From NCBI RefSeq assembly GCF_026151205.1, contig NC_087080.1, positions 9,471,837-9,535,836 of the forward strand: a stretch of DNA of 64,000 bases. The letters run 5' to 3'. The stretch's first letter is position 1, and each line of letters starts with the position of its first letter. Below, piece by piece: positions 3,721 through 60,869 of this stretch. Position numbers and translations under genes: made by a program. A model generated the notes under the pieces. That model saw only the letters and a list, made by a program, of their open reading frames with translations, searched no databases and was not told the origin of the DNA. This stretch comes from Bolinopsis microptera (lineage: Eukaryota > Ctenophora > Tentaculata > Lobata > Bolinopsidae).

Positions 3721-3895
3721 CGACGCCAGAATTCTGATTCAGAAGGTGACAACATTAGGACTCTACTCACTTATGTAATCTAGAGGAACGTGTTTTGTGA
3801 AACGGAAACTGGAGCAGTATTCACATCAGCTGAGATGCGAGACTGAGATATTATGTTATTTATGATGTTATAAGTGTAGGATAATCGACCTTCAC

Positions 3896-5509
3896 ATGCA
3901 ACACCTGCTAACCAATGAACATGGTTTGAAAGACCATCAAAACCGAGTCAAAAACATAGAAGACCATTGTAAAGGAGAACTAAGTGAAGATGTAAGTGGT
4001 GTCAAAAAGGCTATTAAAGACCTTCAGAAACAAATCACAGATCTTTCCACCAAAGGTCTTGTCTCATCTACTGCTCCCAAGCTTGACACTGAGAAATTGA
4101 TACATGATATCATAGACCAGCTTGATGAACATACTCGGCAGGAACCGCATATTTCTCTTGAACTGAAGGAAATCAAGCAGTCTCTAGACCAACTATCTTC
4201 CCAACAGACGACAATTCCTCATGATCAGCCATCATCTGGTTCTGCATTAAATGATAAGCACCTTCTATCAAAGACCACCTTTAAACATGAGGAAAAACCT
4301 GTGGTAGACACCGTGGAAGAATTCATCGACAGTGATGCTGAATCAGACCTTCTCCAATACTGCGAATCTCTTCAGTTCAGTCAGGAGAATGGGCATTCAG
4401 TATGTTCTTTTGGAGAGAAGTACAAGTATAGCGGATCCAGAGATGAGAATAAGAAAACCGTGGAGATCCCTGATAAAATTGCTGCACTTGTCCTGAAAAT
4501 CAATGAGGAGTTCTGTGCAGAAGGAAACCCTGTAATGAATAGCGTGTTGATCAACCGCTATGAAGAAGGCGAGGGTTATCTGCCTGAACATTCAGACAAT
4601 GAACCGGTGATACATCCAGAGTCTAGCATATTGACTCTTTCCATTGGAGGTGAATGCAAAGTCCTCTTCACTGAAACGAACAACCCAGTTCACACGCACA
4701 AGTGTACTCCAAGATCAGTTTACAGGATGACCAGAAGGAGTCAGGCTCACTACAAGCACTCTATCCAGAAGGGGTCAGTCACTGGTGCAGTACGATATAG
4801 TTTCACCTTCAGATCAATAGATGGAAAGAATCGTGCCAGTACTTGTATCTTCTCTGATTCAAATGGAGCAGGTATGAAATTTGGAGAGGATCACAAAAGG
4901 AGCTTTGGTAAGTGGCTGCCTGGTCGGAATGTTTGGACTCCTACAATAGATGACATTAACCCATATCTTGCATGTGGATACAAGAACATTGTTATTATGT
5001 GTGGTATAAATGATGTTAGAAGACCATCTGTTAAATCTCAGCGTGAAATTTTTGCTATATTTAGTCATCTAGAATTCAAGATTGAGCAAATTCAAGAGGC
5101 CAATCCAACTGCCCAAGTATTTCTTTGTCCTCTTTTACCAACTCGAAATGCTGATTTAAATAGGAAAGTTCTTTACTTTATAGAGCTTATTCGTCGTGAG
5201 CTACTTCCCAAAAACTTTGGTGTCCAGTTCGTTGATGGCTTTGATGACTTCCTGGATAATAACACTGGCTTACTTTGCCTAACCTTGTCCAGGGAGTTTG
5301 ACAAATATGGCCGGACGGATTACCTGCACCTTAATTGGAAGGGAGTGGCCAAACTTGCTACTTTAATCCGTAATACTGTCCTCGTTAGGATGCATGGAGG
5401 GACTGATAGGAGGAAGAGGGGGAGGAGGGACGGTAAGGTTGGTTCAACACTTTATTCTCATGCCGCCGGAGGACAGCCTCATGTTGAAGGCTATCAGCCT
5501 CCAACATGA
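3896..5509 (+). CDS. LINE ORF1: coiled coil, AlkB-like dioxygenase, SGNH esterase
   Basis: This 537-residue ORF1 protein has a charged, probably coiled-coil N-terminus (about 10-65) and an acidic linker. Residues about 150-308 match the AlkB-type 2-oxoglutarate/Fe(II) fold: LINRYEEGEGYLPEHSDNE with candidate iron ligands H232 and D234, a third histidine at H285 or H288, and R300/R306 in RYSFTFR for 2-oxoglutarate binding. An SGNH-hydrolase-like domain follows: S322 in SDSNG, N372 in GINDVR, and D475/H478 in DYLHLNW. The C-terminus (500-537) is basic. Esterase domains are known in CR1/L2 ORF1. The AlkB domain is the unusual part. The function, possibly RNA demethylation or RNP handling, is inference. 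The start may not be native because the element begins just upstream. Confidence 0.85.
   Translation: MQHLLTNEHGLKDHQNRVKNIEDHCKGELSEDVSGVKKAIKDLQKQITDLSTKGLVSSTAPKLDTEKLIHDIIDQLDEHTRQEPHISLELKEIKQSLDQLSSQQTTIPHDQPSSGSALNDKHLLSKTTFKHEEKPVVDTVEEFIDSDAESDLLQYCESLQFSQENGHSVCSFGEKYKYSGSRDENKKTVEIPDKIAALVLKINEEFCAEGNPVMNSVLINRYEEGEGYLPEHSDNEPVIHPESSILTLSIGGECKVLFTETNNPVHTHKCTPRSVYRMTRRSQAHYKHSIQKGSVTGAVRYSFTFRSIDGKNRASTCIFSDSNGAGMKFGEDHKRSFGKWLPGRNVWTPTIDDINPYLACGYKNIVIMCGINDVRRPSVKSQREIFAIFSHLEFKIEQIQEANPTAQVFLCPLLPTRNADLNRKVLYFIELIRRELLPKNFGVQFVDGFDDFLDNNTGLLCLTLSREFDKYGRTDYLHLNWKGVAKLATLIRNTVLVRMHGGTDRRKRGRRDGKVGSTLYSHAAGGQPHVEGYQPPT
5506..5509 (+). promoter_or_regulatory. ATGA overlap of ORF1 stop and ORF2 start
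   Basis: The ORF2 ATG is 5506-5508 and the ORF1 TGA is 5507-5509, so stop and start share two bases. Stop-start overlaps of this kind support translation by termination-reinitiation in some two-ORF LINEs. Another in-frame ATG lies further into ORF2, but the first one precedes the PHD cysteines and fits best. Confidence 0.7.
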
Positions 5510-8500
5510 ATGTTCTTAAAAAAGAGGTCTGTGCCCACTGTTTAAAAAGTATCTATTTAGGTCAATCTATATTTGAATGCTACAACTGTAACTGTCCCAT
5601 TCACTCTAGATGCTATAACACCAGTGACAAACAAAATCAAAAAGTTGACTTGTACTGCAATAATTGTCTCCACCTAGCAGTAATCCGTTATAACCCATTC
5701 AAGCTTCTGAATGATGACAATGATGATAACACTGATGCAGATGATGTTACACGTAAAATCTCTGAGGTACTTGAAAGCTGTGACTCATATTCTGTAAAAG
5801 GCATAAACCACACCTTTGCTCACGAATTACAAGTGCAAAACTCACTAATATTTCAAAATCTTGATGGCAACAAATCAAACTTTGACTCGCTGGCAATTGA
5901 AATAGCTAGATTTACTAACAAATTCTCTGTAATTGGTCTTGCTGAAACAAATGTAGGCCCTGAATTGAAAAACTTGTACGAACTCACAGGCTATGAGAGC
6001 TTCTATCAAGATACCTTTGACTCGAAAGTAAAAGGCTCAGGAGTAGCTCTATATGTCCTTAACTCCTTTAATGCTGTTAAAAATAACAACCTGTCACAAG
6101 TAACAGAAAATCTAGAAACCCTCTTTGTAACCATAGGAAGTATAGGAAATTCTACTTCTATAGGAGTAATATACCGCCCTCCAAGTGGCAATGCTGAGCA
6201 AGCTCTCCAAGAATTGTCGTCAATCCTTGATAAAGCACCAAAACATACACACATTGCAGGTGATTTTAACATTAATCTCCATGGTAAACACAGTAACATT
6301 ATTGCACAGTATGAAGACGTCCTATTCAGTAGAGGCTTCTTCCCATTGATATCATTAGCAACTCATGAAAAGCCTGGATGTAATGCCTCGTGCATCGACA
6401 ACATCATTACAAATGACCTAGACTCTGTTACTGCCTCTGGAGTCATAACTGATCACATATCTCATCACCTACCTATATTTACAATATTTGACTGGGAAAT
6501 TAGCAAGACCAAAAATATTCACAAGCACACTCAATACTATGACTATTGTAAATCAAACACTGATAAATTTGCTGAAGTCTTGGGTAACAAACTAGACAAT
6601 GAACCAATTATAGATTTTACTAACTTTCATGATATCTTTAAAAACAGCATTGACGAAACCTGCAAACTAGCTGTACCCAAAACCACTAAGCGCACTATGC
6701 AGAACAACCCATGGATTACTGGCGGGATTATAGCCTCAGTAAACCACTGCCATGGGCTGTATGATGACTGGGCGAAAGTCAGGAAAGTTAAGTGTAAACA
6801 AGGCGAAACTGACACAAAAGGGGGCACATGCGTGTGTTCTATCTGCTGTAATAAAAGAAACCGTTATGATGACTACAAAGAATATAGAAAGGCTCTAAAA
6901 AAGGTTCGTAAAAAAGCTGTATCTGAATATTATTCTGACAAGTTTCTTGAAACTCAGGGAAATTCCAAGAAAACCTGGGAACTGATAAATAAAATTCGTG
7001 GCAAACAGAAACGTGATATCAGACCTATATTTACCATAGACAATGAAAAGATAACTGATCGCAGAGTTATAGCTAATGAATTCAATAAGTATTTTGTATC
7101 CCTAGCATCTAACCTTAATGCAGCCTACACAGAACTAGGAGAGATACAAATAAATCAGCTTCCAAGTTTCTGTGACTTCTTACCTAAATCGAATACAGCT
7201 AATATATATCTACATGACTGCTCACCTGAGGAGGTGGCTAAGATCATATCGGAACTTAAGAATGGCAAGGCTAGCGACATACCAGTACATATAGTAAAGG
7301 CAGTATCAGGCAAAATTAGCCCACTACTATCGGTATTGTACAACGAATGTATGCAACAGGGATTTTTTCCAGACGACCTAAAAGTAGGTAAAATAAGTCC
7401 AATATATAAGAAAGAAAATGCTGAGCTTCTTGAAAATTACAGGCCTATCTCAACCTTAGCAATATTCGGTAAAATACTTGAAAAAATCATATTCTCCAGG
7501 CTTTACAGTTTCTTCCAGTCGCAAGGATTATTATATGAAAATCAATATGGCTTTAGAAAAAATCACTCGACAAGCCATGCACTCAACTTTTCTGTCGACT
7601 ACATTGAAAAATCTTTAAGAGATAAAAATCACGTACTAGGCATCTTCATTGATTTAAGTAAAGCTTTTGACACAATCTGTCATGATAAACTGCTTAAAAA
7701 ACTGAATGATTATGGAATTCGAGGGACTGCAAATAAATTGATAGCCAGTTACCTTTCTAATAGACAGCAATATGTTTCAGTACTTGGAGAAGAATCCGAA
7801 AAACTGTCTGTAATATTTGGTGTTCCTCAGGGGTCAGTATTAGGTCCCTTGCTTTTCATTATCTACATCAATGAAATATATAGAGTATCAGACCTAGGTA
7901 AGTTTATACTTTTTGCCGATGACACCAACATATTTGTTGTAGATAAATGTATAAAAACACTTTACTGCAAAGCTAATAAAATTCTTAAACTTGTTCATCA
8001 GTATATGAAGAGTAACTTGCTGCATATCAACATAAAGAAATGTTGCTATATCCACTTTAAGCCGAACTGTAGAAATGAACCAGATTCAAACACCAATGAA
8101 TTAGAACTGACACTAAATAATATAGTAATTAAAAAGGTGGAGGAAACTAAGTTTCTTGGAGTCATTATTGACCAAAAACTGAACTGGGATGCTCACTTAA
8201 GAGCGTTAAACCGTAAATTGAAATGTGAGATAGGTAGACTATGTGGAATTAGACGCTGTGTACCTAAAAAACTATATAAGGACCTGTACCACACCCTTTT
8301 TGAATCACACCTATGTTATGGAATATCTGTTTGGGGAGGTGTATCAAATAATAAACTAGAAGCCATATTTAAAACACAAAAGAAATGCATAAGAATTCTC
8401 TTTGGTGATAATGATGCATACTTCAATAAGTTCAAAACATGTGCCAGAGTAAGGCCTATCACTAGGGATAAGACCGGTAAAGTTATCAAGCAGATGTTAG

Positions 8501-8889
8501 GCAAAGATTTCTTTGAACTAGAACACAGTAAACCAATCTGTAACGAGTATAACTTCCTGACTGTCCACAATCTTCATAAGTTGCACTGTTTACTGGAAAT
8601 GTTCAAAATTAATAAGTTCCAATCACCAATCTCAATGTTCTCTTTATTCAACAGGTCACCAAGACGAGACAACTACTTCATCCCACCCACTCCATCCTCA
8701 CTATACATCTATCAATCAACTAGTATTTGGAATCACTGCCGTAAGTCAACAAGTGAAATAGACTTCTCCACTCCCATCAGTATATTCAAGAATAATCTTA
8801 AGAAATCTTTGTTAGAACTACAGTCTAAATATGACCGACAACTTTGGTGCAGTTACAACTTTGATGCAAATGAATTATCATTGAAATAG
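5506..8889 (+). CDS. LINE ORF2: PHD finger, APE endonuclease, reverse transcriptase
   Basis: This 1127-residue protein nicks target DNA and reverse-transcribes the element RNA. A PHD finger has the full Cys4-His-Cys3 set (C9, C12, C25, C28, H33, C36, C51, C54). The endonuclease spans about 115-330 with E147 in AETN, GDFN (D253, N255) and D316/H317. The reverse transcriptase spans about 560-850 with IDLSKAFD (D716), GVPQGSVLGPLLF and FADD (F803-D806). The C-terminus is Cys/His-rich. No stop or frameshift is visible. Its ATG overlaps the ORF1 stop in ATGA, pointing to termination-reinitiation. It resembles CR1/L2-clade elements; exact placement needs a tree. Confidence 0.93.
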   Translation: MNVLKKEVCAHCLKSIYLGQSIFECYNCNCPIHSRCYNTSDKQNQKVDLYCNNCLHLAVIRYNPFKLLNDDNDDNTDADDVTRKISEVLESCDSYSVKGINHTFAHELQVQNSLIFQNLDGNKSNFDSLAIEIARFTNKFSVIGLAETNVGPELKNLYELTGYESFYQDTFDSKVKGSGVALYVLNSFNAVKNNNLSQVTENLETLFVTIGSIGNSTSIGVIYRPPSGNAEQALQELSSILDKAPKHTHIAGDFNINLHGKHSNIIAQYEDVLFSRGFFPLISLATHEKPGCNASCIDNIITNDLDSVTASGVITDHISHHLPIFTIFDWEISKTKNIHKHTQYYDYCKSNTDKFAEVLGNKLDNEPIIDFTNFHDIFKNSIDETCKLAVPKTTKRTMQNNPWITGGIIASVNHCHGLYDDWAKVRKVKCKQGETDTKGGTCVCSICCNKRNRYDDYKEYRKALKKVRKKAVSEYYSDKFLETQGNSKKTWELINKIRGKQKRDIRPIFTIDNEKITDRRVIANEFNKYFVSLASNLNAAYTELGEIQINQLPSFCDFLPKSNTANIYLHDCSPEEVAKIISELKNGKASDIPVHIVKAVSGKISPLLSVLYNECMQQGFFPDDLKVGKISPIYKKENAELLENYRPISTLAIFGKILEKIIFSRLYSFFQSQGLLYENQYGFRKNHSTSHALNFSVDYIEKSLRDKNHVLGIFIDLSKAFDTICHDKLLKKLNDYGIRGTANKLIASYLSNRQQYVSVLGEESEKLSVIFGVPQGSVLGPLLFIIYINEIYRVSDLGKFILFADDTNIFVVDKCIKTLYCKANKILKLVHQYMKSNLLHINIKKCCYIHFKPNCRNEPDSNTNELELTLNNIVIKKVEETKFLGVIIDQKLNWDAHLRALNRKLKCEIGRLCGIRRCVPKKLYKDLYHTLFESHLCYGISVWGGVSNNKLEAIFKTQKKCIRILFGDNDAYFNKFKTCARVRPITRDKTGKVIKQMLGKDFFELEHSKPICNEYNFLTVHNLHKLHCLLEMFKINKFQSPISMFSLFNRSPRRDNYFIPPTPSSLYIYQSTSIWNHCRKSTSEIDFSTPISIFKNNLKKSLLELQSKYDRQLWCSYNFDANELSLK

Positions 8890-10216
8890 GTTGATTTAGT
8901 AAACATAATCACATGAGTAAACCACGGTGTTATTGCAAAAAACCATGACAAGGGTATCAGACCTATATTAATCTAAGAGACGACACAAAACGAATCATCA
9001 TACAACAAATTTTAAAATCCTGCGGCACAGGATCTTGTTGTTTTCCTACTCTACCTCTCCCAAACCCCTCTCTCCTTCTCCTCTCTTCAGGTTTATTCTT
9101 CAATTTTTTTTAAATTAGATAGCAGATGTATTTTCTTTTAAATGAAGTAATGGCATTATACATTGATTGGTATCGTATGTATGTTGTGTATAGTGTTTGC
9201 TGACTGGGTATATGCTATATATTTTGAGGCTCACGACGTCTCGTCCCATGGGCGGAGTTGTAGGCTGAGTATGTGTTCTCCTTACTTCGTATGGGGAAAC
9301 ATTGACAGGTTTGCCTTAGCCTTTGGGACGAGTGTTTGCCCACCGGGGATCCAAAAATATGATTATCATGGACATTACTTTGACACATAAACTAATCAAA
9401 CGACTTGAATGATTCCAGAAAATTTTACTAACTGCATTTAGCTAGTTTATAGTAAATACACACGATCGCAGAATAGAGGAGCACAATTGGGTTCTTTGTT
9501 CTGCGACTGTGTTTCCTCGGTGGGCCGACAGGTTTTTGTTGTGTAGTAGTGCTGGGGAAAAAAAAACGCTTTAACTATCAATGAGAGTACAAATTTTTAA
9601 TTCTTGACCTTAGTGCCACAGTTTCTGTGGTAAAAACAAATTTATAGTTAAACGTTATATAATGTAGAAGGGCATGATTTACTCACATCACTAAGCATCT
9701 GGATGGATAATTAGCACACAAGGATAAACTGACCTTTAAACATGACCACCAACTATAATACCACGTAACCATAGCTCCGAAATAAATAAATTGCTCTATA
9801 TAGAAACATCTGGCCTGATCCTATCACATTGTGGTCCCCAGGGGTTCGGTAAAGCCCTTACAGGCAACTGGGTCCTTTTACCAGCCACAATAAAATTGGT
9901 CATGCCAGTACTGTCATAAACTGTAACCAACTATTTAAAAATTAGACATCTTTAGCTAAATTTTAAATTTTAAGTCATAGAGCAATCTTCTTAATTTTAA
10001 AATTTTTAAGAATTATATTTTACCCTAACTATGATGTGGTGGCATTTCATACTTAACTAAATTTCAACTTTGAAAGTAAATAGATTATTAGTGACAACAA
10101 ATTATAGTTTAAGACATCCATTCTGCATTGTGTTTCCAATATTAGAATTTATGATATGTATTGATTGAATAATTGGTAATAAATTTAACTTTTGTTTTAT
10201 TAACTTTTGTTTTATT
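8890..10216 (+). other. LINE 3' untranslated region and tail
   Basis: There is no convincing gene here; short ORFs at 9163 and elsewhere look random. A small stem (ccacag-tttc-tgtgg) lies near 9618. The end carries two copies of a 15-base AT-rich repeat just before the array sequence resumes. Structured 3' ends and short terminal repeats fit recognition by the element's own reverse transcriptase, but that is inference. Confidence 0.6.
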
Positions 10217-40879: not shown

Positions 40880-41078
40880 GATTGGGCGACATCTGTCCGA
40901 CAGCGACATCTGTCCGAAAGCTGAATTAGGGATTTCGGACAGATGTCGCTGTCGGACAAGAGTCGTTTTTGGCGACATCTGTCCGAATTTCGGATCATAT
41001 TGTAATTTCGGTTCACATTCGTATTTCACAAGCTCACGGGTAATCTCGTGACGTTCTAAAGCTGATGTGATCCCTTAA

Positions 41079-42441
41079 GGGGGGGGGGGTTCACCCTGAT
41101 TTTTTTGTGAAACTTGGTTTCGAGATAGCAGTTGACCAACAAACTAGGACCAGTGACCGAACTTTTGAGGGGGTCCCGGACCCCAACCGCCAAACGGTGC
41201 CCGCGGGGCAGCCACGCCCATATTTGGTCCAAATTAGGCCCAATTTAGCCAAATACCCTGAACATGCCCAAAATCCAGATTTTAGGTGCTCTACTTGTAG
41301 CTAGCGGTTCCTTGAACTCGTATATGAATTTTCATCAAGATTGGACAAAAAATGACTGAGTTATGAGCAAAAAACCATATGACCATATTTGGGCATACGC
41401 ACCAAATTTGATCGATTTTTGGCCCATAAATTGGTCAAATATCAATATTTTTGAATGAAACCAACTTTATATGGAAGGTAAGCCTATACTACACATTATC
41501 TATGATTATCAGCTCAGTATCTACCTAATTGTGGATTCTATGTTCAAATAATCGCAAAAAATGAACAAAATTGCCCATATCTCAGTTCGCGATATTTGCA
41601 AAACTGACTTCGCTCAAAACAATAGAACTCAATAGGGTTTCAATATTTTTTCATGAAATTTTCAGAATCAACGTAGAATTGTCTCATGACCTTAAGTTTT
41701 GGGACAGAATTTTGAGTTAGGCCTTTAAAAAAATTTGGCGGCCAAATTCCAAAATTTGCACTGCTAAATTTAGAATTTGGCCGCCAAATTTTTTTAAAGG
41801 CCTAACTCAAAATTCTGTCCCAAAACTTAAGGTCATGAGACAATTCTACGTTGATTCTGAAAATTTCATGAAAAAATATTGAAACCCTATTGAGTTCTAT
41901 TGTTTTGAGCGAAGTCAGTTTTGCAAATATCGCGAACTGAGATATGGGCAATTTTGTTCATTTTTTGCGATTATTTGAACATAGAATCCACAATTAGGTA
42001 GATACTGAGCTGATAATCATAGATAATGTGTAGTATAGGCTTACCTTCCATATAAAGTTGGTTTCATTCAAAAATATTGATATTTGACCAATTTATGGGC
42101 CAAAAATCGATCAAATTTGGTGCGTATGCCCAAATATGGTCATATGGTTTTTTGCTCATAACTCAGTCATTTTTTGTCCAATCTTGATGAAAATTCATAT
42201 ACGAGTTTAGGGAACCACTAGCTACAAGTAGAGCACCTAAAATCTGGATTTTGGGCATGTTCAGGGTATTTGGCTAAATTGGGCCTAATTTGGACCAAAT
42301 ATGGGCGTGGCTGCCCCGCGGGCACCGTTTGGCGGTTGGGGTCCGGGACCCCCTCAAAAGTTCGGTCACTGGTCCTAGTTTGTTGGTCAACTGCTATCTC
42401 GAAACCAAGTTTCACAAAAAAATCAGGGTGAACCCCCCCCC
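41079..42441. mobile_element. 1363-bp foldback element with TTAA target duplication
   Basis: Arms 41079-41749 and 41773-42441 are essentially perfect reverse complements around a 23-base centre. They begin with an 11-G run and end with a 9-C run. TTAA flanks both sides (41075-41078 and 42442-42445). The empty site cccttaagatctgatcc is present in the duplicated segment at about 42811-42827. TTAA duplications are made by piggyBac and Kolobok transposases. No coding capacity: the ORFs at 41107 and 42218 are mirror images of each other. Such long near-perfect arms imply youth or gene conversion. Confidence 0.92.
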
Positions 42442-42445
42442 TTAA

Positions 42446-42975
42446 GATCTGATCCATCGATACGTGATTGACTAGTTGAGAACAGGATCGTGCTAGCCGT
42501 ACCCTAACAAGCTGTCGATCACATCACAGGACATGAGTACATATAGGACAGCAGTATGGAGAGACGCAAACAAGGCTCGGAGAACCCTGTCCTAAATGGC
42601 TTCAGGGTAACACGACGATTGGGCGACATCTGTCCGACAGCGACATCTGTCCGAAAGCTGAATTAGGGATTTCGGACAGATGTCGCTGTCGGACAAGAGT
42701 CGTTTTTGGCGACATCTGTCCGAATTTCGGATCATATTGTAATTTCGGTTCACATTCGTATTTCACAAGCTCACGGGTAATCTCGTGACGTTCTAAAGCT
42801 GATGTGATCCCTTAAGATCTGATCCATCGATACGTGATTGACTAGTTGAGAACAGGATCGTGCTAGCCGTACCCTAACAAGCTGTCGATCACATCACAGG
42901 ACATGAGTACATATAGGACAGCAGTATGGAGAGACGCAAACAAGGCTCGGAGAACCCTGTCCTAAATGGCTTCAG
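42446..42975 (+). repeat. Duplicated left end of the Mutator-like element
   Basis: 42446-42605 (following the foldback) repeats at 42816-42975, and 40880-41078 repeats at 42617-42815. The first copy includes the transposase ATG (42556) and 16 codons, then jumps to a fresh terminus ggtaacacgac at 42606. The second copy lacks the foldback and leads into the longer ORF. Confidence 0.88.
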
Positions 42976-43807
42976 ATACGTCTTCGACAAGCGAAGAGAC
43001 GACACCTCCTACTGGAAATGTTCGGATTTCCGAAAGGGTTGCAGAGCCCGCATCCGTACTGTGGACAGACAACTGATCACTCCTACTCCTGACCACACTC
43101 ACCCTGTCGGCCATGCTGAAACGAACGTCCACGTCAGCAAACAGAACTTGAAAAGAAAGGCTTCTGGTGGAGATCAACCGACGAAATACCTCGTATCTGA
43201 AGCAGTCGGTGGATTGGGTTACGAATCTAGAGCAAAGCTTGGCTGCCAGCTATCATCCCTCAACAGAATGGTACAGAGAAGCAGAAAAGCAGCTAACAGA
43301 CACCCTTCTAACCTGAGAGATCTGGAAACGCTCTCCATTCCTGCAAACTACATCCTCTCTACCGACAACGAACCAATGATGCTCTGGGACGCTGGATGGG
43401 ACGAACAGACTCGTCGATCTTTCCTTTGGGGGACTCCTAAGAACGCAGATCATATGGTGGACGCGGAGCATTGGGTAGTCGACGGTACCTTCAAATCCGC
43501 ACCTAATCTGTTCCATCAGCTCTTCACAGTCCATGGCCTCTTCCCTGACGGCTGGCACCTCCCCCTCTTCTATGGACTCCTTCCTGGAAAAACGACGACC
43601 CTCTACCGCAACCTGTTCGAGGAGATAGACACCTGGGCTTCTGGGGGCTACCAACCACAATCCATCCTCATGGACTACGAGCTCGCCATTCACAACGCAG
43701 TTGCTTCCGTGTGGCCCTCCACTACCAGACGAGGATGTAACTTCCACTACAAGAAGGCCCTCCTGAAGCATGTTACAACTTCGACAACTTCAGAGAATTG
43801 TAGATGA
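42926..43807 (+). pseudogene. MULE transposase with FLYWCH finger, interrupted
   Basis: A FLYWCH-type finger (residues about 9-60: NGFRYVFDKR, YWKCSDFRKGCRARI, H-T-H) precedes a MULE catalytic region (about 180-285): EHWVVDGTFKSAP, GLLPGKTTTLY, ILMDYELAIHNAV and GCNFHYKKAL. The first two acidic catalytic residues (D in VDGTF, D in MDYE) are present. It loses frame near HVTTSTT. The original frame resumes as VDDYDNYSNPMDF and is cut by a TTAA insertion at 43840, continuing AIGNLTML after 45740. The last third of a normal transposase is missing. The start is the ATG at 42926. Confidence 0.85.
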
Positions 43808-47600: not shown

Positions 47601-47603
47601 CTA

Positions 47604-48620
47604 TACTCCAGTAGCAGGGAGGTGTTGAGTGTGCACTTCGATGTACAGAGTTTTTTGCTATTGAATCGGGTTAAATAGGTCATTGGTAACTCAAATCACC
47701 GAGGGGGGAATTTTGTGTCGCTAGCCCCAACCCTGTGGAGCCACGCCCATATTTCATATCAGGTGCGTATATGGGAAATATGTATCTCAGCTTCTGAAGG
47801 TCTTAGAGACTCAAGCTTGAGTTTAAAATGACCGCAATGACCATGTTTATATTAGTACTATGAAGGTCATGAAAGCCCAAAATGCTTATTTTTGGAAAAA
47901 ATTCAGAAAAACCGATTTTCACTTGAGCGTGAGTAAAAAAATCTACTCTAGAAATTTAGTGAAAATCGAGTAAGCAGTTCAGTGTCTACAAGATTTCTAA
48001 ACACAGGGTCCTCTGTTAGGTCATTCTGAATTAGAATTGATAAAGTAAGCAAATTCTATAAGTAGTTTCAACCCTGTGGAGCCACGCCCATATTTCATAT
48101 CAGGTGCGTATATGGGAAATATGTATCTCAGCTTCTGAAGGTCTTAGAGACTCAAGCTTGAGTTTAAAATGACCGCAATGACCATGTTTATATTAGTACT
48201 ATGAAGGTCATGAAAGCCCAAAATGCTTATTTTTGGAAAAAATTCAGAAAAACTGATTTTCACAAGCAAAAAATCTACTCTAGAAGTTAAGTGAAATCGA
48301 GTGTAAAGTTCAGTGTCTACAACGTTTCTAAACATAGGATCCTTTGTAAGATCATTCTGAATCAGAATTGATTAGGTATGCAAATTCTATTAGTAGTTTT
48401 AACCCTAGGGTGCAAAACTCCTAAATTACCCCCAGGCGCAAATATATGACTTTTCTATCTCGGCTTCTGAACGTTGTAGGGGCCTCTCTTTGAGCTCAAA
48501 CTAACTACAATGGCCACATTTATATACCGACTATAAAGCACAAAGCAACTTAGGGTCTATACAGCTTAGTTTTTAGAAATTCATTAAAAACTTTTTTAAC
48601 CTTCATGCATCATAAAATAG
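47604..48620 (+). repeat. Left inverted arm
   Basis: It matches 54027-55035 in reverse, with two internal direct copies of gtggagccacgcccatattt (47735 and 48075 regions). An inner, more diverged inverted segment follows: 48621-48705 against 53660-53745. Confidence 0.9.
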
Positions 48621-49327
48621 TCTCTACCCAGCTACCACCAGTGCGTTATGATTTTAGATCTTTCTAGCAACCTCTGATATGAATGCTACCTCTTCCTCTA
48701 TCCAGCTACTATACCACCAATTCCAGCTGTTTTCACCTACTTCGGCTACTATCTCTTTAGCTACCACCAAGGTTCCTCCAACTTCTGCTATTTCTAGCAA
48801 TCTTAGCTTCTAGGTTAGTGGACTACTTCTTGCCCTATCCTATCAATCATTTCATATTATCTAATTCCTAACCTCATGCCGTACTCAGACAACGACGACG
48901 CAATATCTACACGATATCTACACAGATATTTACACAGTACTCATTATACATACATCACACATTACTGTACATTTGACTCTGTACATTTGACTGATCTGTA
49001 CATTTGACTCTGTACATTTGACTCTGAACATTCGACACATACATTACTGTACATATGGAAATTAGGCTCATGCACGGTGAGCTGCTGCCATCAAGTAATA
49101 GAAGAGAAGTTAAAGGTCAATCATAAAGGTAAAGGTGAAGTTTACTTAATTACTGTAGATAAGTCACGGTACTTTCTACACACAGGACTGAAAGTCTTCG
49201 TTAGAAGTATCTGACTAGGTCACGTTATTATTATCATATTTTGTATTAATAGTAAGTCTATACTCTCTTAAATATATCATAATATAACTATAATACTCAC
49301 GAATATAATACATTATCTCATAGTTCT
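48621..49327. other. Spacer upstream of the third LINE
   Basis: It contains the inner inverted segment (ctacccagctaccacc), repeated gctac-type pyrimidine-rich sequence, and five copies of a 17-base unit, tgtacatttgactc (48968-49024). No gene. The 5' end of the LINE must lie here but cannot be fixed. Confidence 0.45.
48968..49030 (+). repeat. 17-bp tandem repeat upstream of LINE ORF
   Basis: tgtacatttgactc recurs about five times with small spacers. Short tandem repeats in the 5' region of LINEs can act as promoter units, but this is only position-based inference. Confidence 0.7.
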
Positions 49328-52300
49328 ATGAACGAATCTCAGCGTTGCAACAAATGTAATACACGTATTCCTAAAGCACGTTCGTTCCTAATTTGCAGTC
49401 ACTGCGACAAAATAAAACATATGAAATGCATGAAGTTATCTAAGTCTGAGGCAAAAATAATTGTAGATTCTGGCTCTGCCTGGATATGTTATGACTGTAT
49501 TTCCAGCGCCTTACCAGTAAATGCATGCCCCTCGGCAAAGCCACCGAGACAAGGGCCCGTCATAGGTCCTAAATTTAAAGTTCAATGCACATGCTGTAAT
49601 GGCTGGATTTACTCCCCCGCCAACCTGAAAACCTGCCACTGGTGCGAATCTAAAGTACATACCAAATGTCACTCCGACTTATTAGGATGCAGAAATTGCT
49701 GTGAAAATATGATCCCGGGATACTATGTACATTGCTATCAGCTATACTCATTACATACACATACTCACACCGGCGTAATCCACAATCCCTACGATCGCTA
49801 TCAGTTGATTAACGAAATAGGAAATACAATTGACCAAGATCAGGAACTCGAATATTGGAATGAGATTTCTGATATTTTAGTTAGCTGCAATTACATGGAG
49901 CCGACTAATGTAAGTTCGTCAGGACCATGTGATCTTAAGATATTTACCTTAAACATACGGGGACTTCTTAAAAACGTAGACAAATTAAGAGAAGATATAT
50001 TCACGTACTCGAAGTATGATGTCCTTTGTTTTAACGAGACTAATCTCTTGCAGGATAAGCTTCCTAATGGTATTAATGACCTAGTGCTCGAGGGATTTTA
50101 TGAACCACTGTTACGAGATCCAATACGTAGTTCTGGTCGTGGTGGGGGTTTAGCAATTTATATCAATACGCGCGTATGCGAGTCTGAAAATATTGAAAAA
50201 TTCTTTCCCCAAAACTTTGATGTGACAGACAAGAGTGGTGAATTCATGTTGGTAAAACTCCATAACTGCAAAGGCTTTAACAAAACAAAGATAATCGTCA
50301 ATATATATCGGTCACCTGCATCAAAAAATCCTGATAATTTTAACAAACTCATTGACTCCCTATTACACGGCATGGAAAGGCACTCGAGAAAACATACTAT
50401 ATTAGTCGGTGATTTCAATGTAGATCTTACACATTATGATACTGACAAACATTGTCAAAATTTGATTGAAACTATGACTAAATACGGTTTCTTTCCTGAG
50501 CTAGTCTCACGTCCCACACGTATCACTGATCACAGTGCCACTCTTATAGATCATGTTTACAGCAATAACGTACAACACACACACAGCTGCAATGTTCTTA
50601 CTGTTGACCTGTCTGATCATCTAGCCACTCTTGTTACTATCTCACTTGGGCAATACAGCCACATTGCAGGGAGTAGAAACAAACGACACAGAGTCGACCA
50701 TGGAATGAATATTGAAAAACGTATGTTTAACGAGTCGAACAACCTTAAATTTATAGAATTAATTGGATCCGAAATGTGGGAGGAAGTCACACGTGAAAAT
50801 TGTGCTGATGAACAATATAACAAATTTATTGAAATATACGGTCAGCATTATGATGAGGCATACCCAGTGAAAACCAATCATGTGCGCCGCAAATTTGAAA
50901 GGCAGGACCCCAAACCTTTTATGCTACCCTGGCTTGAAATTGCATGTGCTCGTAAAAACAAATTATTCCATGCCAAAATAGTGGACCCAACGGAGGAAAA
51001 CTACAAGGCTTACAAAAAGCATAAGGCATTCTGCGACAAGCACGTCAATAAGGCAAAAGACAAATACTACAAAACACAATTTGATAAGTATAAAGATTGT
51101 TCAAAGAAACAATGGCAGCTGATCAACACTCTACTTGGCAGAAAATCTAAATCTCATAACAAAATTAAACTCCAAAACGCCGACGGAAATATCATAAATA
51201 GTGACAGTGATGTAGCTGAGCACTTTAACTCTTACTTCTCCAACATTGCCACAAAAATCAAAGATGCGATCAGCGCGCGTACTGTATTCGATCCAGGGGG
51301 TTTTAAACATTACCTTAGCAGCCCAGCTTCGCAGTCTATGTTCGTAAGACCAACTACCGAAAGTGAAGTTGAACAAATTATTAGCAAGCTTAAGAATAAA
51401 TCCACTCAAGACACTAAAATTGAACCCCTAAAAATTGTAAAAGACTGCCCCTCCTTCTGTAAAGTCTTGTCCATAATCATTAACACATCATTTAGTCAAG
51501 GTATCTTCCCATCATCTCTCAAAATAGCTAAAGTTATACCAATTCACAAAGGAGGCAGCAAATCCGACGCCACTAACTATCGACCCATATCTTTGCTGTG
51601 CACATTTTCCAAATTGTATGAAAAACTTATGCATAATAGAGTAATGGACTTCCTTGACAAGAAAGGCTCGCTCTTTGAAGGGCAATATGGCTTCCGGCCA
51701 GGCCGATCCTGTGAGCATGCTCTTTTGGATGCTCAACACACGATTCTGAATTCCCTTGCCAAAAAGGAAGTTGCTCTATTACTCCTAGTCGACTTTAGTA
51801 AAGCTTTTGACGTTTTGTCTCATGATGTATTGATTGACAAACTCCAGCACTATGGAATCCGTGGGCAAGCTTTGCAATGGTTTAAATCCTACCTGAGCAC
51901 ACGTCAGCAATATGTATGTTTGAATGGTATTAAATCAGCTCTTAAACCTATTACATACGGAGTTCCACAGGGCAGTATTATGGGACCTTTGTTATTCCTA
52001 ATCTACATCAATGATATGCCAAATATCAACAGTATGATAAAGTTTATACTCTACGCTGATGATGCAAACATCATAATAAAAGGAAAAAATGCAAACGATG
52101 TTATACAAAAATTCAACCAATTCTCCCACGAGTTTGTACGCTGGGTTGACTGTAATGGACTTGCACTTAATCTAAAAAAGACCTGCTATATGCTTTTCGG
52201 TGTTAGAAATACTGATAATACTCCAATTATTCATATTGCAGACACACAATTAGAACGTAAAAGGGAAGCACGGTTCCTTGGCGTTATAATGGATGATAAA

Positions 52301-52741
52301 CTAACATGGTCTAAGCATATAGCAGCTGTTAGATCAAAAATGATGCGGTATGTAGGAATTATGTATAAAATAAAACGTCACCTATCGATTCAAATAAGGC
52401 TACAGATATATCAAAGTTTTGTTCAATCGCATTTAAACTTCTGTTCAATTGTATGGGGGTTTGCAGCAAAAAATCACATTGAATCACTCTTCTCACGACA
52501 AAAACAGGGTATCAGGGCAGTAATGCCAGGTCACATTAATTACTTTTACAAAGACGGTCGACTGCCAGAACACACAAAACAATTTTTCAATAACAATGGT
52601 ATACTCACGGTGCACAGTGTTATTGTAAAAAACACACTAATTCTCATGCACCGAATCAAACATTTCCGCAGCTCAGTCCCTCAACAAATCTGTATTCAAC
52701 TATCCCAGAAAATGCACCCACTGCAAACTCAGATCACGTGA
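49328..52741 (+). CDS. LINE ORF: two PHD-like fingers, endonuclease, reverse transcriptase
   Basis: 1137 codons. The first finger is Cys4-His-Cys3 (C7, C10, C23, C26, H31, C34, C54, C57). A second follows (C86, C89, C102, C105, H110, C113, C120, C123). The endonuclease (about 205-450) has N in LNIRGL, FNETN, GDFN and SDH. The reverse transcriptase has VIPIHKGG, NYRPISL, VDFSKAFD, GVPQGSIMGPLLF and YADD (Y909-D912). The ORF ends early at a TGA because of a frameshift near 52738; the rest continues at 52738-52992. It is related to the LINE at 3886 but has two fingers instead of one, and no ORF1 is visible upstream. Confidence 0.9.
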   Translation: MNESQRCNKCNTRIPKARSFLICSHCDKIKHMKCMKLSKSEAKIIVDSGSAWICYDCISSALPVNACPSAKPPRQGPVIGPKFKVQCTCCNGWIYSPANLKTCHWCESKVHTKCHSDLLGCRNCCENMIPGYYVHCYQLYSLHTHTHTGVIHNPYDRYQLINEIGNTIDQDQELEYWNEISDILVSCNYMEPTNVSSSGPCDLKIFTLNIRGLLKNVDKLREDIFTYSKYDVLCFNETNLLQDKLPNGINDLVLEGFYEPLLRDPIRSSGRGGGLAIYINTRVCESENIEKFFPQNFDVTDKSGEFMLVKLHNCKGFNKTKIIVNIYRSPASKNPDNFNKLIDSLLHGMERHSRKHTILVGDFNVDLTHYDTDKHCQNLIETMTKYGFFPELVSRPTRITDHSATLIDHVYSNNVQHTHSCNVLTVDLSDHLATLVTISLGQYSHIAGSRNKRHRVDHGMNIEKRMFNESNNLKFIELIGSEMWEEVTRENCADEQYNKFIEIYGQHYDEAYPVKTNHVRRKFERQDPKPFMLPWLEIACARKNKLFHAKIVDPTEENYKAYKKHKAFCDKHVNKAKDKYYKTQFDKYKDCSKKQWQLINTLLGRKSKSHNKIKLQNADGNIINSDSDVAEHFNSYFSNIATKIKDAISARTVFDPGGFKHYLSSPASQSMFVRPTTESEVEQIISKLKNKSTQDTKIEPLKIVKDCPSFCKVLSIIINTSFSQGIFPSSLKIAKVIPIHKGGSKSDATNYRPISLLCTFSKLYEKLMHNRVMDFLDKKGSLFEGQYGFRPGRSCEHALLDAQHTILNSLAKKEVALLLLVDFSKAFDVLSHDVLIDKLQHYGIRGQALQWFKSYLSTRQQYVCLNGIKSALKPITYGVPQGSIMGPLLFLIYINDMPNINSMIKFILYADDANIIIKGKNANDVIQKFNQFSHEFVRWVDCNGLALNLKKTCYMLFGVRNTDNTPIIHIADTQLERKREARFLGVIMDDKLTWSKHIAAVRSKMMRYVGIMYKIKRHLSIQIRLQIYQSFVQSHLNFCSIVWGFAAKNHIESLFSRQKQGIRAVMPGHINYFYKDGRLPEHTKQFFNNNGILTVHSVIVKNTLILMHRIKHFRSSVPQQICIQLSQKMHPLQTQIT

Positions 52742-52992: not shown

Positions 52993-54026
52993 AAGTTACT
53001 GGACACAACGGTCATTATATCAGTTTAGTGAATTAGTTAATTAGTTAATTAGTAAATCAGTTATTAGTCATATGGTTATTATTAAGTACTATATATTATA
53101 TGATATTACAAAAATAAACTATGAATATATATTTGCACACAAAAAACCAGAACAAACTGATCACAGACTAGCGGCAACTAATATTAATGGATAAGCCACA
53201 CATCCTAAATTCCAGGTCCATATTTACACTGCCACATTCCCCACTATCACTATTTTCCTATCAGCACAAACCGTAATTAATTGATTTCAACAATCACAAA
53301 CACTACATATCCAAACTAATGACATGGCATAGCAATATCTACGATATCCTAAATCAGTCCCTAACAAACTTAGCGCGAGTCTGAAAGGCTGTTGGAAGCA
53401 CAGAGTGCTCCATATTTTGTTTTAAATCAATAAACCTTTTTTTTTCATTTTCATTTTCTTTTTTTTATAAATTTATTAACTGCGTGCAAATTTGTGTTTC
53501 AGATTTGATCTATTTATGATATATATTTATGATTATGTAATAAAGTTATTAATATTATATTCGTAAACATTGGCTGGCTTACAAACCAGTCCCCAAACAA
53601 ACAAACAAATCTAGCAACCATCAGAAAAATGTCCTCTTCCTTAATGAGCTGGAAATTGTTGGATGCAGCGGAGGTAGCACTCATAGATCAGAGGTTATAA
53701 GATCTAAAATTATAACGTACGGTGGTAGCTGGGTAGAGTTGACCTGGAGTTAGCAGAAGGCAGCTAGAAGTAGATTCTGCTACATGATGTTGGATTCAAG
53801 TTGATTAGCCATAAAAGCCGAGCAGTACTGGAGAGAGCCCCAGGGAGGGAGCTGAAGGCAGCCTTCTGAAACTGAGTATTTTCGCAGTTATACCAAAATT
53901 AAAGTTAGGTGGTATGTGCTGCTCCATAAATGTTATCCTAATGTGTTTATGTTGAACGTTTTACTGTGCTGCAAATATCTTTTTAGCCCGAGATATCATT
54001 ATTAAGTACATGTTTGATCATATTAC
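52993..54026. other. LINE 3' region and inner part of right arm
   Basis: AT-rich 3' sequence runs to about 53470 with aacaaacaaac runs near 53598. An inverted match to the left inner segment follows (53660-53745). Then about 280 bases (53746-54026) have no counterpart on the left side, including ccccagggagggagctgaagg. No gene. Confidence 0.5.
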
Positions 54027-55035
54027 TATTTTATGATGCATGAAGGTTAAAACAGTTTTTAATGAATTTCTATAAACTAAGCTATATAGACCCTATGTTG
54101 CTTTATAGTCGGTATATAAATGTGGCCATTGTAGTTAGTTTGAGCTCAAAGAGAGGCCCCTACAACGTTCAAAAGCCGAGATAGAAAAGTCATATATTTG
54201 CGCCTGGGGGTAATTTAGGAGTTTTGCACCCTAGGGTTAAAACTACTAATAGAATTTGCATACCTAATCAATTCTGATTCAGAATGATCTTACAAAGGAT
54301 CCTATGTTTAGAAACGTTGTAGACACTGAACTTTACACTCGATTTCACTTAACTTCTAGAGTAGATTTTTTGCTTGTGAAAATCAGTTTTTCTGAATTTT
54401 TTCCAAAAATAAGCATTTTGGGCTTTCATGACCTTCATAGTACTAATATAAACATGGTCATTGCGGTCATTTTAAACTCAAGCTTGAGTCTCTAAGACCT
54501 TCAGAAGCTGAGATACATATTTCCCATATACGCACCTGATATGAAATATGGGCGTGGCTCCACAGGGTTGAAACTACTTATAGAATTTGCTTACTTTATC
54601 AATTCTAATTCAGAATGACCTAACAGAGGACCCTGTGTTTAGAAATCTTGTAGACACTGAACTGCTTACTCGATTTTCACTAAATTTCTAGAGTAGATTT
54701 TTTTACTCACGCTCAAGTGAAAATCGGTTTTTCTGAATTTTTTCCAAAAATAAGCATTTTGGGCTTTCATGACCTTCATAGTACTAATATAAACATGTGC
54801 ATTGCGGTCATTTTAAACTTAAATTTGAGTCTCTAAGACCTTCAGAAGCTGAGATACATATTTCCCATATACGCACCTGATATGAAATATGGGCGTGGCT
54901 CCACAGGGTTGGGGCTAGCGACACAAAATTCCCCCCTCGGTGATTTGAGTTACCAATGACCTATTTAACCCGATTCAATAGCAAAAAACTCTGTACATCG
55001 AAGTGCACACTCAACACCTCCCTGCTACTGGAGTA
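54027..55035 (-). repeat. Right inverted arm
   Basis: This is the reverse complement of 47604-48620, with a few substitutions and small indels. The ORF at 54304 is the mirror of one at 48144, so both are shadows of the repeat. Confidence 0.9.
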
Positions 55036-55180
55036 CTAGGTTTGATTTAAACTGTTAGATTAAATTAATCATCATTGTATTTGTAATTTGTAATTTGTAT
55101 TATAATTTTCATTTTTGTTTTTTGAAAAGAAGTTTATACATCAAGAGGGGAAAAGGTGAAAGAAAAGTATAATCTGTAAC

Positions 55181-57527: not shown

Positions 57528-57865
57528 TTTTCCACTGAATGAAATATCGATCAATAGAAACTCATGAAAGAAGACTAAAACAGCCTGAAAGAAAGGGTGT
57601 TTTCAGAAAGCTTGACGACAACCCAAAAGAAGAGGAGGTGTTTGTAAAAACTTTCTATATTATATGATCAGAAACCCAAGGTAACTTAACATTTCTAGTC
57701 TATTTGCCCACAATAAAAAACCAATTTCGATTTACTACCATGAAAATTGTTATATATATTGAACATTGATTGCTATCATAATTTGTTATTAACGATTTGT
57801 TCTTCCCTAGCCTCTTTGATTACGTGTTAACAGCTTGTTTTATTTCTACACTCACGCTACAACAA

Positions 57866-59944
57866 ATGGCGACGAGGACAAAAGAGCCACTAACCGTCAC
57901 ATGCTGTCAAAAAAGCTGGTTTGAAAGATACGAGTTTGAGTTATTGGCGGGAGGACTGGCAGCAGAGGTCCCAGAGTTAGCTAATGACGGTTCTAACCGT
58001 GAGGCTAGAAACATGGCTATAAAGAAGAATTTAGCAGGCTTTATTGCAAGGACAGATGAGAACATTTACAAGCTGTTGAAGTCACTGACCGTAAAAAAGA
58101 TGGAAGACTGCAGTTACGAGGAGTGTAAGAAACTCATTTTAGATCACTTGGCCCCGGCACCAACAAAGTTTGCTCAAAGATACAAACTGAGAAGCTGTGT
58201 GCAGGAGGGCGAAGAATCCACAGCAACCTATGTTTCAAGACTAAGAACAATCGCAAATGAATGTGATTTTGCCAACTACAACGAGGCTATATTGGATCAG
58301 CTGCTCGCTGGACTGAGGAATCAAAAGGTTGTTTCCGAGTTGTTAACTAAGGATGACTTAACACTGGCAACCGCGGTGAAGGAAGCTTTAAGTCGTGAGC
58401 AAGCAAACAGGGAGGCTCAATTCATGAATAACACGTTATCACCGGGAGAGTCATCGAGATCAGTGAACTTTGTGAAACCAACATTCAAAAGAACAATGAA
58501 AAACCTCTATGGGAAGAAGGGGGAAAGTTCAGGTGGTTCGGGTGGAAAGCAGAAAAGTGGAATGCAAAAGGGACTTAAATGTAGACGGTGCGGACTTCGT
58601 GGACATATTGGTGAAAATTGTCAAGTCCGGTATCATATCTGCAAACGTATTGGACACATCTCCAAGAATTGCAAGCAAAACAGCATTGTTCACAACATTG
58701 AACAAGGAGAGTCGAGTTCGGAGAGTTATGAGTTCGGTATGGATGAGAATTGTGAAAATGTCTTGGACAATGAGATTTACCCCGAGTATGATCATGACAA
58801 TGAGTGTAATTCAGTTGAGATTGAAAAAGGTAATGCTAATACATGTTCTTATCTGTGTGCTGATTTCTCTAAACTTACTCATTTAACTGATTCGAAATCT
58901 TCAAATATGTATGTGAGGGATAAGGTGTTTAATGCCTTTGATTTTAGTTATCTTGTTTGTGATCCCGATTCCACTATTACCACTGATAAGTCTGACTTAA
59001 GTTTAGTTTCTGATAATGTGTTTCCGAATGTCAATATGATTGAGTTAAGCAAACCGTATGTAGAAGTAGAAATCAACGGTAAACTTTTGTCTATGGAGTT
59101 CGATTCAGGGTCTGCAGTGTCTGTTGTGAGCAAACGTACATTATTATCTTGTGGCTTGGCCAATTTAACACTTACACCCAGCAGGCAAACATTACGGGTT
59201 GCAAACGGACAAATCAAAACAGTTGACGGCTGTGCTGTAGTTAATGTAGAGTTGAACGGTGAAAAAGCTCATGGAATGCAGCTCTATGTAGCAGAGGACT
59301 TCCCCAGTTTGTTTGGAAGACCGTGGATTGTAAAGTTCTGTGGACAGAATTGGCTAGAGAAGCTGCTCAGCACAAAGTTAGTACATAATTTAGCCCCAGA
59401 CAAATCCCAGCAGGTGTCAGTGAGCTGTGAAAGCTGCTCTGGGAGTGGTGTCGATAAGGGTGACATGCTAACCGATGGTGCGACCGTGAAAAACAGGTGG
59501 AAATGTGAAAACACCTGTACTCGGGTTGATCAATGTCGTAGTATCGCTCAGTTAAAACAGAGCGAGGTGTTTAAATCGGGTTTAGGACTAGTTAAGGGTG
59601 TACAGGCAAGTTTGGTCCTGAAGGACAACTCCAAACCTATTATGATGAAAGCCCGTAGTCTACCCTATGCCTTGAGAAACAAGGTTGAAAGTGAGTTAAA
59701 TGATATGGTTGAAGCGAAGATTCTAACCAAAGTCGAAGACAGTCCACGGGGGACACCCATAGTGCCTGTGAAGAAGGATGGAGGGCGGTCAGTGCGCATT
59801 TGTGGGGATTATAAATCGACCCTGAACAAATGTATCAGCACCCGACAATACCCTCTACCTACCGTGGAGGAATGTCTGAATGCTGTGCAGGGGGGACAAA
59901 CGTTCTCTAAGATTGACATCAAAAAGGCTTATAATAACCTGTAG
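57866..59944 (+). pseudogene. Gypsy Gag-protease-RT (first part, ends at a stop)
   Basis: I place the start at ATG 57866 (MATRTKEPLTV); upstream codons are open but lie in non-coding-like sequence. The Gag body spans to about 225. A CCHC knuckle follows (C239, C242, H247, C252), then a second whose first Cys is Tyr (YHICKRIGHISKNC). The protease has DSG at about 413. The RT begins near 570 (RSLPYALRNKVESEL, ICGDYKSTLNK, FSKIDIKKAYNNL) and is cut by a TAG at 59942-59944 just past the first catalytic Asp. Confidence 0.82.
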
Positions 59945-59999
59945 CTGTTGATAAGAAATGAGGACCGTGTCTTGAATCACCCTGAATACGCACAAAGGG

Positions 60000-60869
60000 T
60001 TGTATCAATGGAATCGCTTGCCGTATGGCATCAGCAGTGCATCGGCTATATTCCAGTCATGTATGGATGACACTCTGTGGGGTGTGCCTATGACGTGCTG
60101 CAGAATTGACGATATATTAGTTTCTGGTCGAAATGAGAGTGACCATCTGATCAACCTCAATAATGTCATAAGTAGGTTGGAGCAGCGAGGTTTTAAATGT
60201 AAAACCGAAAAAACTTCTTTCATGCAAAAAGAAGTTGTCTATCTGGGTCATGTGGTGTCTGCTGAAGGGATCAAACCCGTGAAAAGCAAGGTCGAGAGTA
60301 TGCTGATGGCTCCAGAACCTAGGAATGTGGACGAACTAATTAGTTTTTTGGGGGCTGTGAATTATTACAGGCGCTATTTGCCCAACTTGTCGTCTGTGAT
60401 TGCTCCAATTGAAAGGCTGAGAGCTAAGAATGTAAAGTGGGTGTGGACAAATACCGAAAAGACAGCGTTTAAAATATTGAAAAATCTGCTGGCTTCTAAC
60501 CGTGTATTGACCTTTTACAATCCCAAGCTTCCTCTTAAACTGGACACTGATGCTTCAATCGGTGGCATTGGCGCAGTGTTGTCTCACATTATGCTGAATG
60601 GGGATGAGCGCCCCATTGAGTTCATCTCCCGGACCCTGTCACCGGCCGAGAGGAATTACGCTCAAGTGGACAAAGAGGCCCTGGCCATAGTGTGGGCCAT
60701 AAAGCGCCTACATATTTACTTGTATATGAGACAGTTTACCTTGGTGACAGATCATCGTGCGCTGGTTCGTATATTTGGCGATAAGCCAATTCCAGAGATG
60801 ACTGCCGGTAGGTTAACTAGGTGGGCTTTATTCCTTATGAATTACCAGTATGACATTCAATATATATAA
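60000..60869 (+). pseudogene. Gypsy RT-RNase H (second part, shifted frame)
   Basis: It continues the RT in another frame: WNRLPYGISSASAIFQ, then RIDDILV where most relatives have Tyr in place of Arg in the YxDD box, YLGHVVS and FLGAVNYYRRYLPN. The RNase H follows: LDTDASIGGIGAVLS, DKEALAIVWAIKRLHIY and TDHRALV. It ends at a TAA after YQYDIQYI, before any integrase. The frameshift lies between about 59980 and 60000. Confidence 0.82.

Follow-up and report, generated by a model that had tools for sequence, protein, structure and literature searches.

Does a single transposon protein of a comb jelly combine an AlkB-type dioxygenase with an SGNH esterase, and what would such a pair do for the element that encodes it? 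The question is raised by an open reading frame in the window, a stretch of 64,000 nucleotides of Bolinopsis microptera, which a preliminary description had read as a LINE ORF1 fusing the two enzymes. The features bearing on this reading are collected in Table 1.

Table 1. Features of the LINE in the window. Aligned copies include the window copy and near-copies.
Feature	Position in window	Strand	Basis or remark
LINE insertion, 5'-truncated, 6331 bp, inside tandem array	3886..10216	+	uninterrupted sites and homology start
ORF1, 537 aa, N-terminus missing here	3896..5509	+	linker, AlkB, SGNH, basic tail
AlkB-type Fe(II)/2-oxoglutarate dioxygenase domain	4283..4819	+	residues 130-308; Pfam part 172-306; PF13532 E=2.7e-15
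Iron ligands H232-S-D234	4589..4597	+	invariant in 15/15 aligned copies
Third iron ligand H288	4757..4759	+	invariant in 15/15 aligned copies
Arginine motif R300...R306, RYSFTFR	4793..4813	+	both R invariant in 15/15; aligned with ALKBH2 RVNLTFR
SGNH esterase-like domain, residues 314-500	4835..5395	+	PF13472 E=5.8e-6, sub-threshold; catalytic positions invariant
Candidate nucleophile S322	4859..4861	+	invariant in 15/15 aligned copies
N372 of CGIND block	5009..5011	+	invariant in 15/15 aligned copies
D475-Y-L-H478, candidate acid and base	5318..5329	+	D and H invariant in 15/15
Arginine/lysine-rich tail, C-terminal to esterase	5396..5440	+	sequence
ATGA, shared by the stop of ORF1 and the start of ORF2	5506..5509	+	sequence
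ORF2, 1127 aa: N-terminal zinc finger, APE-type endonuclease, reverse transcriptase	5506..8889	+	Pfam
Reverse transcriptase domain	7408..8169	+	RVT_1 residues 635-888
3' end: two copies of TTAACTTTTGTTTTA and TT	10185..10216	+	sequence

Comparison of the window ORF1, a frame of 537 codons without a stop, with Pfam revealed a match to the AlkB profile PF13532 (2OG-FeII_Oxy_2) of 57.5 bits, against a curated cut-off of 31.2, with residues 172-306 covering positions 53-194 of the 194 in the profile. Human ALKBH2, recovered from the PDB by phmmer at about 2e-4, aligned at H232-x-D234 and at R300/R306, the latter presumably being the 2-oxoglutarate-binding arginine motif. A profile score above the curated cut-off is thus joined by the HxD...H triad and the RxxxxxR spacing by which AlkB-family members are recognized, in agreement with the pattern first noted by eye. 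The preliminary description had left the third iron ligand between H285 and H288; H288 is the invariant residue, and H285 was rejected. The esterase part matched PF13472 (Lipase_GDSL_2) over residues 356-483 with 27.3 bits, short of the curated cut-off of 32.9. Its proposed residues S322, N372 and D475-x2-H478 are fully conserved, and together with H232, D234, H288, R300 and R306 they were invariant in all 15 aligned ORF1s, a set that includes the window copy and near-copies. No RRM was matched by Pfam in these ORF1s, and the last 65 residues hold 10-13 Lys or Arg in the window copy and in families A-D (described below). AlphaFold2 models built from the single sequence with no alignment were of low confidence, with a pLDDT of 31.6 for the AlkB domain, for which a double-stranded beta-helix would be expected, and of 44.4 for the SGNH domain. 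By profile and alignment, the window ORF1 is confirmed as an AlkB-type dioxygenase domain followed by an SGNH esterase-like domain.

The first 28000 positions of the window form a tandem array of ~1.1 kb and ~4 kb repeats, ~92-99% alike, in which four uninterrupted sites are left. Because the LINE sits in this array, its insertion site can be read: the uninterrupted site GGATAAT/ATCTTATT is present in array repeats matching GTAGGATAAT at window positions 29, 16612, 21021, and 24855. No target-site duplication was seen at the insertion. Homology with five other copies (L009-L012, L027) begins at 3885, and the mutual match of L009-L012 extends further upstream than the window copy; therefore, the copy in the window is truncated at its 5' end, with an internal ATG at 3896. 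As a native start this ATG was rejected, since the insertion begins at 3886 and family-A copies are ~155 residues longer at the N-terminus, where they carry a PHD finger. The 537-residue ORF1 of the preliminary description thus stands as an open frame and not as the complete protein, which reaches 689-745 aa elsewhere in the genome.

The ATGA overlap that joins ORF1 to ORF2 recurs in several other copies, and the 3' tail is the same in L010, the version in L011 having two extra bases. In ORF2, the reverse transcriptase was matched by RVT_1 at E=6.1e-36, the endonuclease by Exo_endo_phos_2 (2.3e-4) and Exo_endo_phos (0.0069), both below their curated cut-offs, and the zinc finger by C1_1 (0.0087, sub-threshold). 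Another LINE in the window, with an ORF2 27% identical, gave an endonuclease match of 7.9e-13, above the cut-off. With a reverse transcriptase, an N-terminal APE-like endonuclease and repetitive, dispersed, 5'-truncated copies, the element is by its sequence an APE-type LINE (non-LTR retrotransposon), which bears out the LINE context originally assigned to it; a CR1/L2-like placement, judged from anatomy, would be tentative.

Other repeats lie elsewhere in the window. An inverted repeat (47601-48621 and 54025-55039, 98.3% identical) flanks a stretch holding a LINE ORF2 at 49328-52741. Positions 41074-42446 form a near-perfect palindrome, matching its reverse complement at 98.9% identity across ~1.37 kb, beside which an ORF at 42926-43807 appears transposase-like by eye. 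The gag-pol-like ORFs at 57797-60869 resemble, also by eye, a Gypsy-type retrotransposon, and a similar long ORF begins locus L017.

In the genome (264,652,675 bases in 232 contigs), at least 81 matches to ORF1 were found, 81 being the number scored among 958 candidates. By row count, 28 of these are 93-100% identical to the query, one is 74% identical, and 52 fall at 44-52%, so that the element is neither single-copy nor confined to one family. Their starts are ragged at the 5' side and their 3' ends are common to copies. Since 75 of the 81 scored matches contain no stop within the matched stretch, a chance motif match was rejected. Twenty of the matching stretches were fetched for closer reading. 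Counted from the first ATG, ORF1 measures 689-745 aa in families A (L009-L012), B (L014, L016, L026), C (L017-L020), and D (L021); in two further family-B loci, L013 and L015, the open frames run to 728 and 751 codons and the first ATG lies further in, which gives 644 aa, and ORF1 is truncated or broken at the remaining fetched loci. L013 and L015 are 99.69% identical over 6765 bases, and such near-identical copies suggest recent activity.

Full-length ORF1s have the order PHD finger, coiled-coil-like linker, AlkB, SGNH, and basic tail. Among six full-length ORF1s of families A-D scanned with Pfam, AlkB was above the cut-off in all six, PHD was matched in four (one above cut-off), and the lipase profile was matched below threshold in five. 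PHD chains and designed coiled-coil chains were also matched when an ORF1 profile was compared with the PDB. As to coiled-coil periodicity, family A gave no convincing signal, with 40 of 300 shuffles scoring as high, and the signal was moderate in the other three families (B, 18; C, 5; D, 8 of 300 shuffles).

D321-S322, N372-D373, D475, and H478 were also invariant in a set of nine aligned sequences, and conservation of the candidate catalytic residues persists at greater distances. Across seven families (A-G), aligned to family F as the reference at 32-35% identity and with three N-terminally cut slices among the rows, invariance was seen at 55 of 608 reference positions, all nine catalytic candidates included. 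Within families, dN/dS of the AlkB domain was 0.070 (A), 0.235 (B), and 0.129 and 0.153 (C), the two family-C pairs having one copy in common and dS > 1, and the SGNH domain gave 0.093-0.231; synonymous divergence is largely saturated when families are compared with one another. Both enzyme domains are under purifying selection within families.

The two domains also appear to travel together. Base differences between C_L018 and C_L019, measured in 50-codon windows, were 1-5% up to about residue 200, 17-28% between about residues 176 and 600, and 2-6% after about residue 576, and B_L014 and B_L026 diverge sharply beyond about residue 500. These mosaics indicate that the AlkB-SGNH stretch moved between subfamilies, probably, as we infer from the pattern of divergence, via template switching or recombination.

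Across the genome, the AlkB Pfam family gave at least 151 matches, many in long frames (about 150 of 587 candidates were scored), and among those listed all were above the cut-off. Twenty-two AlkB loci were fetched (L029-L035 and L037-L051). Three of them (L035, L047, and L048) are host-like AlkB genes, judged by eye and from the tree; the other 19 are mobile elements, a call based on a following ORF2 or Helitron part or on similarity to a locus with one. A GDSL/SGNH profile match lies in the same frame as AlkB at 14 of the 19, none above the curated cut-off: 12 have E <=0.008 and two are weak (L040, 0.054; L046, 0.13). L030 gave no SGNH match at the limit of 0.05 and is ~80% identical to L031, which has the domain; counting it, SGNH accompanies AlkB at 15 of the 19 loci. 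The remaining four comprise three Helitron slices (L037-L039) that do not reach the place of SGNH and one frame (L051) that ends after AlkB. Among the mobile-element frames scanned, AlkB was above the curated cut-off in 5/5 and 10/10. A profile of families A-G recognized the SGNH domains of ORF1 types H and I and of the Helitron at 8.8e-7 to 2.5e-4, and that of type J at only 0.13-0.19, both for a search space of 10000. No PHD match was obtained in the scanned frames of types H, I, J, or the Helitron, some of which are slices cut at the N-terminus.

When 13 ORF1-type queries were compared with the window by tblastn, no AlkB/SGNH ORF1 was located next to the LINE ORF2s at positions 32282 and 49328; perhaps not every LINE shares the association, or these two ORF2s may belong to truncated copies. 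No relative was found in viral contigs with ORF1, ORF2, and three alignments as queries, or in prokaryotic contigs with ORF1 and one alignment, collections that say little about animal genomes; at least one phage record and at least 28 plasmid records match the AlkB part only.

In total, ten LINE ORF1 types in our grouping (A-J) carry AlkB and an SGNH-like domain in this one genome, and the fusion first noticed in the window is one instance of a genome-wide pattern. The ten types sit on about four ORF2 lineages, the placement of E-J being made without their reverse transcriptases. ORF2 identity is 60-67% within A-D and 33-40% between E, F, or G and A-D over the N-terminal part. The type I ORF2 is 51% identical to that of the window LINE at 49328 and 22-29% to A-G where matched, and that of type H is 21-28% identical to A-D where matched. 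For type J, no ORF2 match was found at E 1e-3. ORF2-like frames follow its ORF1, the scanned one having no Pfam match, and its endonuclease is represented by a sub-threshold match in the L020 stretch with the same residues by eye; type J is a probable LINE. In this type (L030, L031, and L040), AlkB lies toward the N-terminus and SGNH at the C-terminus.

The pair also extends to another class of transposon. L029 and L036 (contig C10:16874382-16884546) together form a single open frame of 3388 codons (L029:883-4500 and L036:1-6546) that encodes SGNH, a Pro/Ala linker, and AlkB, then Helitron_like_N (1e-22) and PIF1 (6.7e-22). Judged by these domains it is a Helitron, with the SGNH-AlkB order inverted relative to the LINEs. 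Further AlkB frames of more than 3200 aa are present in the genome.

An AlkB tree was built from 28 rows, of which 21 are from mobile elements, three from the host, three bacterial, and one from a phage. All rows were excised by the pattern HxD..H..RxxxTxR, which none of the 28 loci lacked, and therefore its presence there is not independent evidence. The Helitrons form one clade. The LINE rows require four label changes, of which the starred branches force at least two. Type J AlkB clusters with the host ALKBH2/3-like genes (named by eye), Burkholderia AlkB, and phage AlkB at 100/99 and stands apart from the remaining LINEs; two long-branched bacterial rows fall among A-G with weak support, and types H and I and the Helitrons are placed without firm support. 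We favour a reading of the tree with at least two gains of AlkB by LINEs, although one gain and one loss also gives two changes, and the position of type J suggests a separate capture.

What, then, might the protein do? In the ORF1 profile search of the PDB, the nearest solved relatives were ALKBH8 (4.9e-7), ALKBH2 (3.2e-6), ALKBH3 (5.6e-4), and ALKBH6 (1.1e-3), and ALKBH5, FTO, and ALKBH1 were absent from the best 60 of 73 matches, so that within those 60 the closest relationship is not to the m6A erasers ALKBH5 and FTO. The substrates of ALKBH2/3 are m1A and m3C. The most plausible role of the AlkB domain would be the reversal of alkyl or methyl marks on the RNA or cDNA of the element, as the preliminary description had proposed, and the elements probably use the AlkB-SGNH protein to clean up their own genetic material or to disguise it. 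On the more specific model, to which we give an even chance, ORF1p is part of a two-enzyme RNA particle. The protein would multimerise on the RNA of its own element, and AlkB would oxidatively strip methyl groups that block or mark the element's single-stranded RNA or DNA. Its targets would most likely be m1A/m3C-type adducts or marks that stop reverse transcriptase, a choice favoured because of the relatives named above. Helitrons do not reverse-transcribe, and one carries the same AlkB-SGNH pair, so relief of blocked reverse transcription cannot explain everything. The PHD finger would direct the particle to chromatin, and ORF2 would probably be made by termination-reinitiation at the ATGA. 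The SGNH domain would provide attachment to lipids or membranes, or de-esterification, in the manner of ZfL2-1 ORF1p, the esterase of which is hydrolytic and binds liposomes (PMC3905857).

A broader reading, that AlkB plus SGNH is a recurrent anti-restriction module acquired or exchanged by unrelated elements, a self-encoded epitranscriptomic or epigenetic counter-defence, seems to us somewhat short of an even bet. The module would be spread over a Helitron and LINEs of about four ORF2 lineages, would occur in three domain orders, and would include AlkB domains that arose at least twice; as part of the proposal, methylation would be the means by which the host attacks the nucleic acids of transposons, and the reason for acquiring the pair. 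That AlkB is a recent chance capture without function can hardly be credited: many families carry it, its dN/dS is 0.07-0.24 in families A-C, and it has probably two origins, each beside SGNH. A single-copy oddity and a decayed passenger were both rejected on the number of families and these ratios, which also removes the outcome that would have undone the initial reading, namely one copy with an AlkB part under no constraint. Action in trans on host tRNA, histones, or silencing proteins, for which the PHD finger would bring the dioxygenase to chromatin, is unlikely. The finger does lie within the same protein, and the best PDB relative, ALKBH8, is a tRNA-wobble enzyme, yet the scanned H, I, J, and Helitron frames (some N-terminally cut) have kept AlkB and SGNH and show no PHD.

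Less probable again is that AlkB serves as a non-catalytic nucleic-acid-binding fold standing in for the missing RRM. A substitute would be useful, as esterase-type ORF1ps are without structured RNA-binding domains (PMC3905857), but neither the iron triad nor the two arginines vary among families at 32-35% identity, a constancy that binding alone would not require. A better case, if still a rather doubtful one, can be made for epitranscriptomic evasion, with AlkB as an eraser of m6A (or DNA 6mA) whose benefit would lie in hiding transcripts from the m6A readers of the host and from decay, not in the clearing of lesions that block reverse transcriptase. MT-A70 (7 matches, some with a stop) and YTH (5 matches) were found in the genome exon by exon, so an m6A system is probably present; an AlkB encoded by an orchid Gypsy element removes m6A from RNA in vitro (PMC9289625); and an mRNA mark would concern LINE and Helitron equally. 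Against this stand the nearest solved relatives, which are not ALKBH5/FTO among the best 60 of 73, and the report that ALKBH5 suppresses L1 in mammals (PMC7873242), an effect that would be of opposite sign to a simple benefit of m6A erasure. The finding of a conserved AlkB-esterase pair across many LINE types and a Helitron connects the question of esterase ORF1s with that of transposon-borne AlkB, and it makes testable whether a transposon has to remove base methylation from its own RNA or DNA in order to multiply. With a comb jelly as host it may also bear on early animal transposon defence.

In plant RNA viruses the AlkB domain belongs to the viral replicase, and to our knowledge no fusion with an esterase occurs there. 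The resemblance lies in a selfish RNA-based element with an AlkB for which RNA demethylation is reported (Alphaflexiviridae, Betaflexiviridae, and Closteroviridae, as given in PMC9289625). Closer is the retrotransposon-encoded AlkB-family dioxygenase of orchid Ty3/Gypsy (Ogre-like) elements, which has intact ligands (PMC9289625) and is, in the literature found, the only previous report of a transposon AlkB, from one plant LTR lineage. That enzyme has demonstrated RNA demethylase activity in vitro; it is an ALKBH5-type protein encoded by a separate ORF of an LTR element in one plant lineage, unlike the ALKBH8/2/3-type AlkB-esterase fusion in a LINE ORF1. Bdelloid LTR/Athena elements carry GDSL/SGNH ORF3s (PMC5408684) and are alike in that esterase genes are common to unrelated retroelements of one host; there the esterase is a separate ORF, and the word 'oxygenase' is absent from the available text of that paper.

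The nearest known architecture is the type IV (esterase) ORF1p of CR1/L2 LINEs such as zebrafish ZfL2-1 (PMC3905857; PMC4120745). Both place ORF1 upstream of an APE-RT ORF2, and both have a coiled-coil-like stretch before the SGNH esterase, an arginine-rich stretch, and no RRM match in Pfam; the SGNH domain with its catalytic residues that characterizes type IV is present here, with PF13472 sub-threshold. Esterase ORF1s were described in 2003 and their role has been unclear since (PMC4120745). In that survey of 448 Jockey-superfamily elements they were reported only from vertebrate L2/CR1 groups, and its main text as available contains none of the terms AlkB, oxygenase, alkylat, 2OG, or methyl. 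Nor was a report of an AlkB-bearing LINE or Helitron found among the best-matching titles and abstracts, a scope outside which subscription journals and Repbase lie. Compared with ZfL2-1-type ORF1p, the window family adds an AlkB domain before the esterase and an N-terminal PHD finger. Judged by its domains, it appears to be a new, AlkB-bearing variant of the esterase-ORF1 LINE, in an association that reaches a different transposon class.
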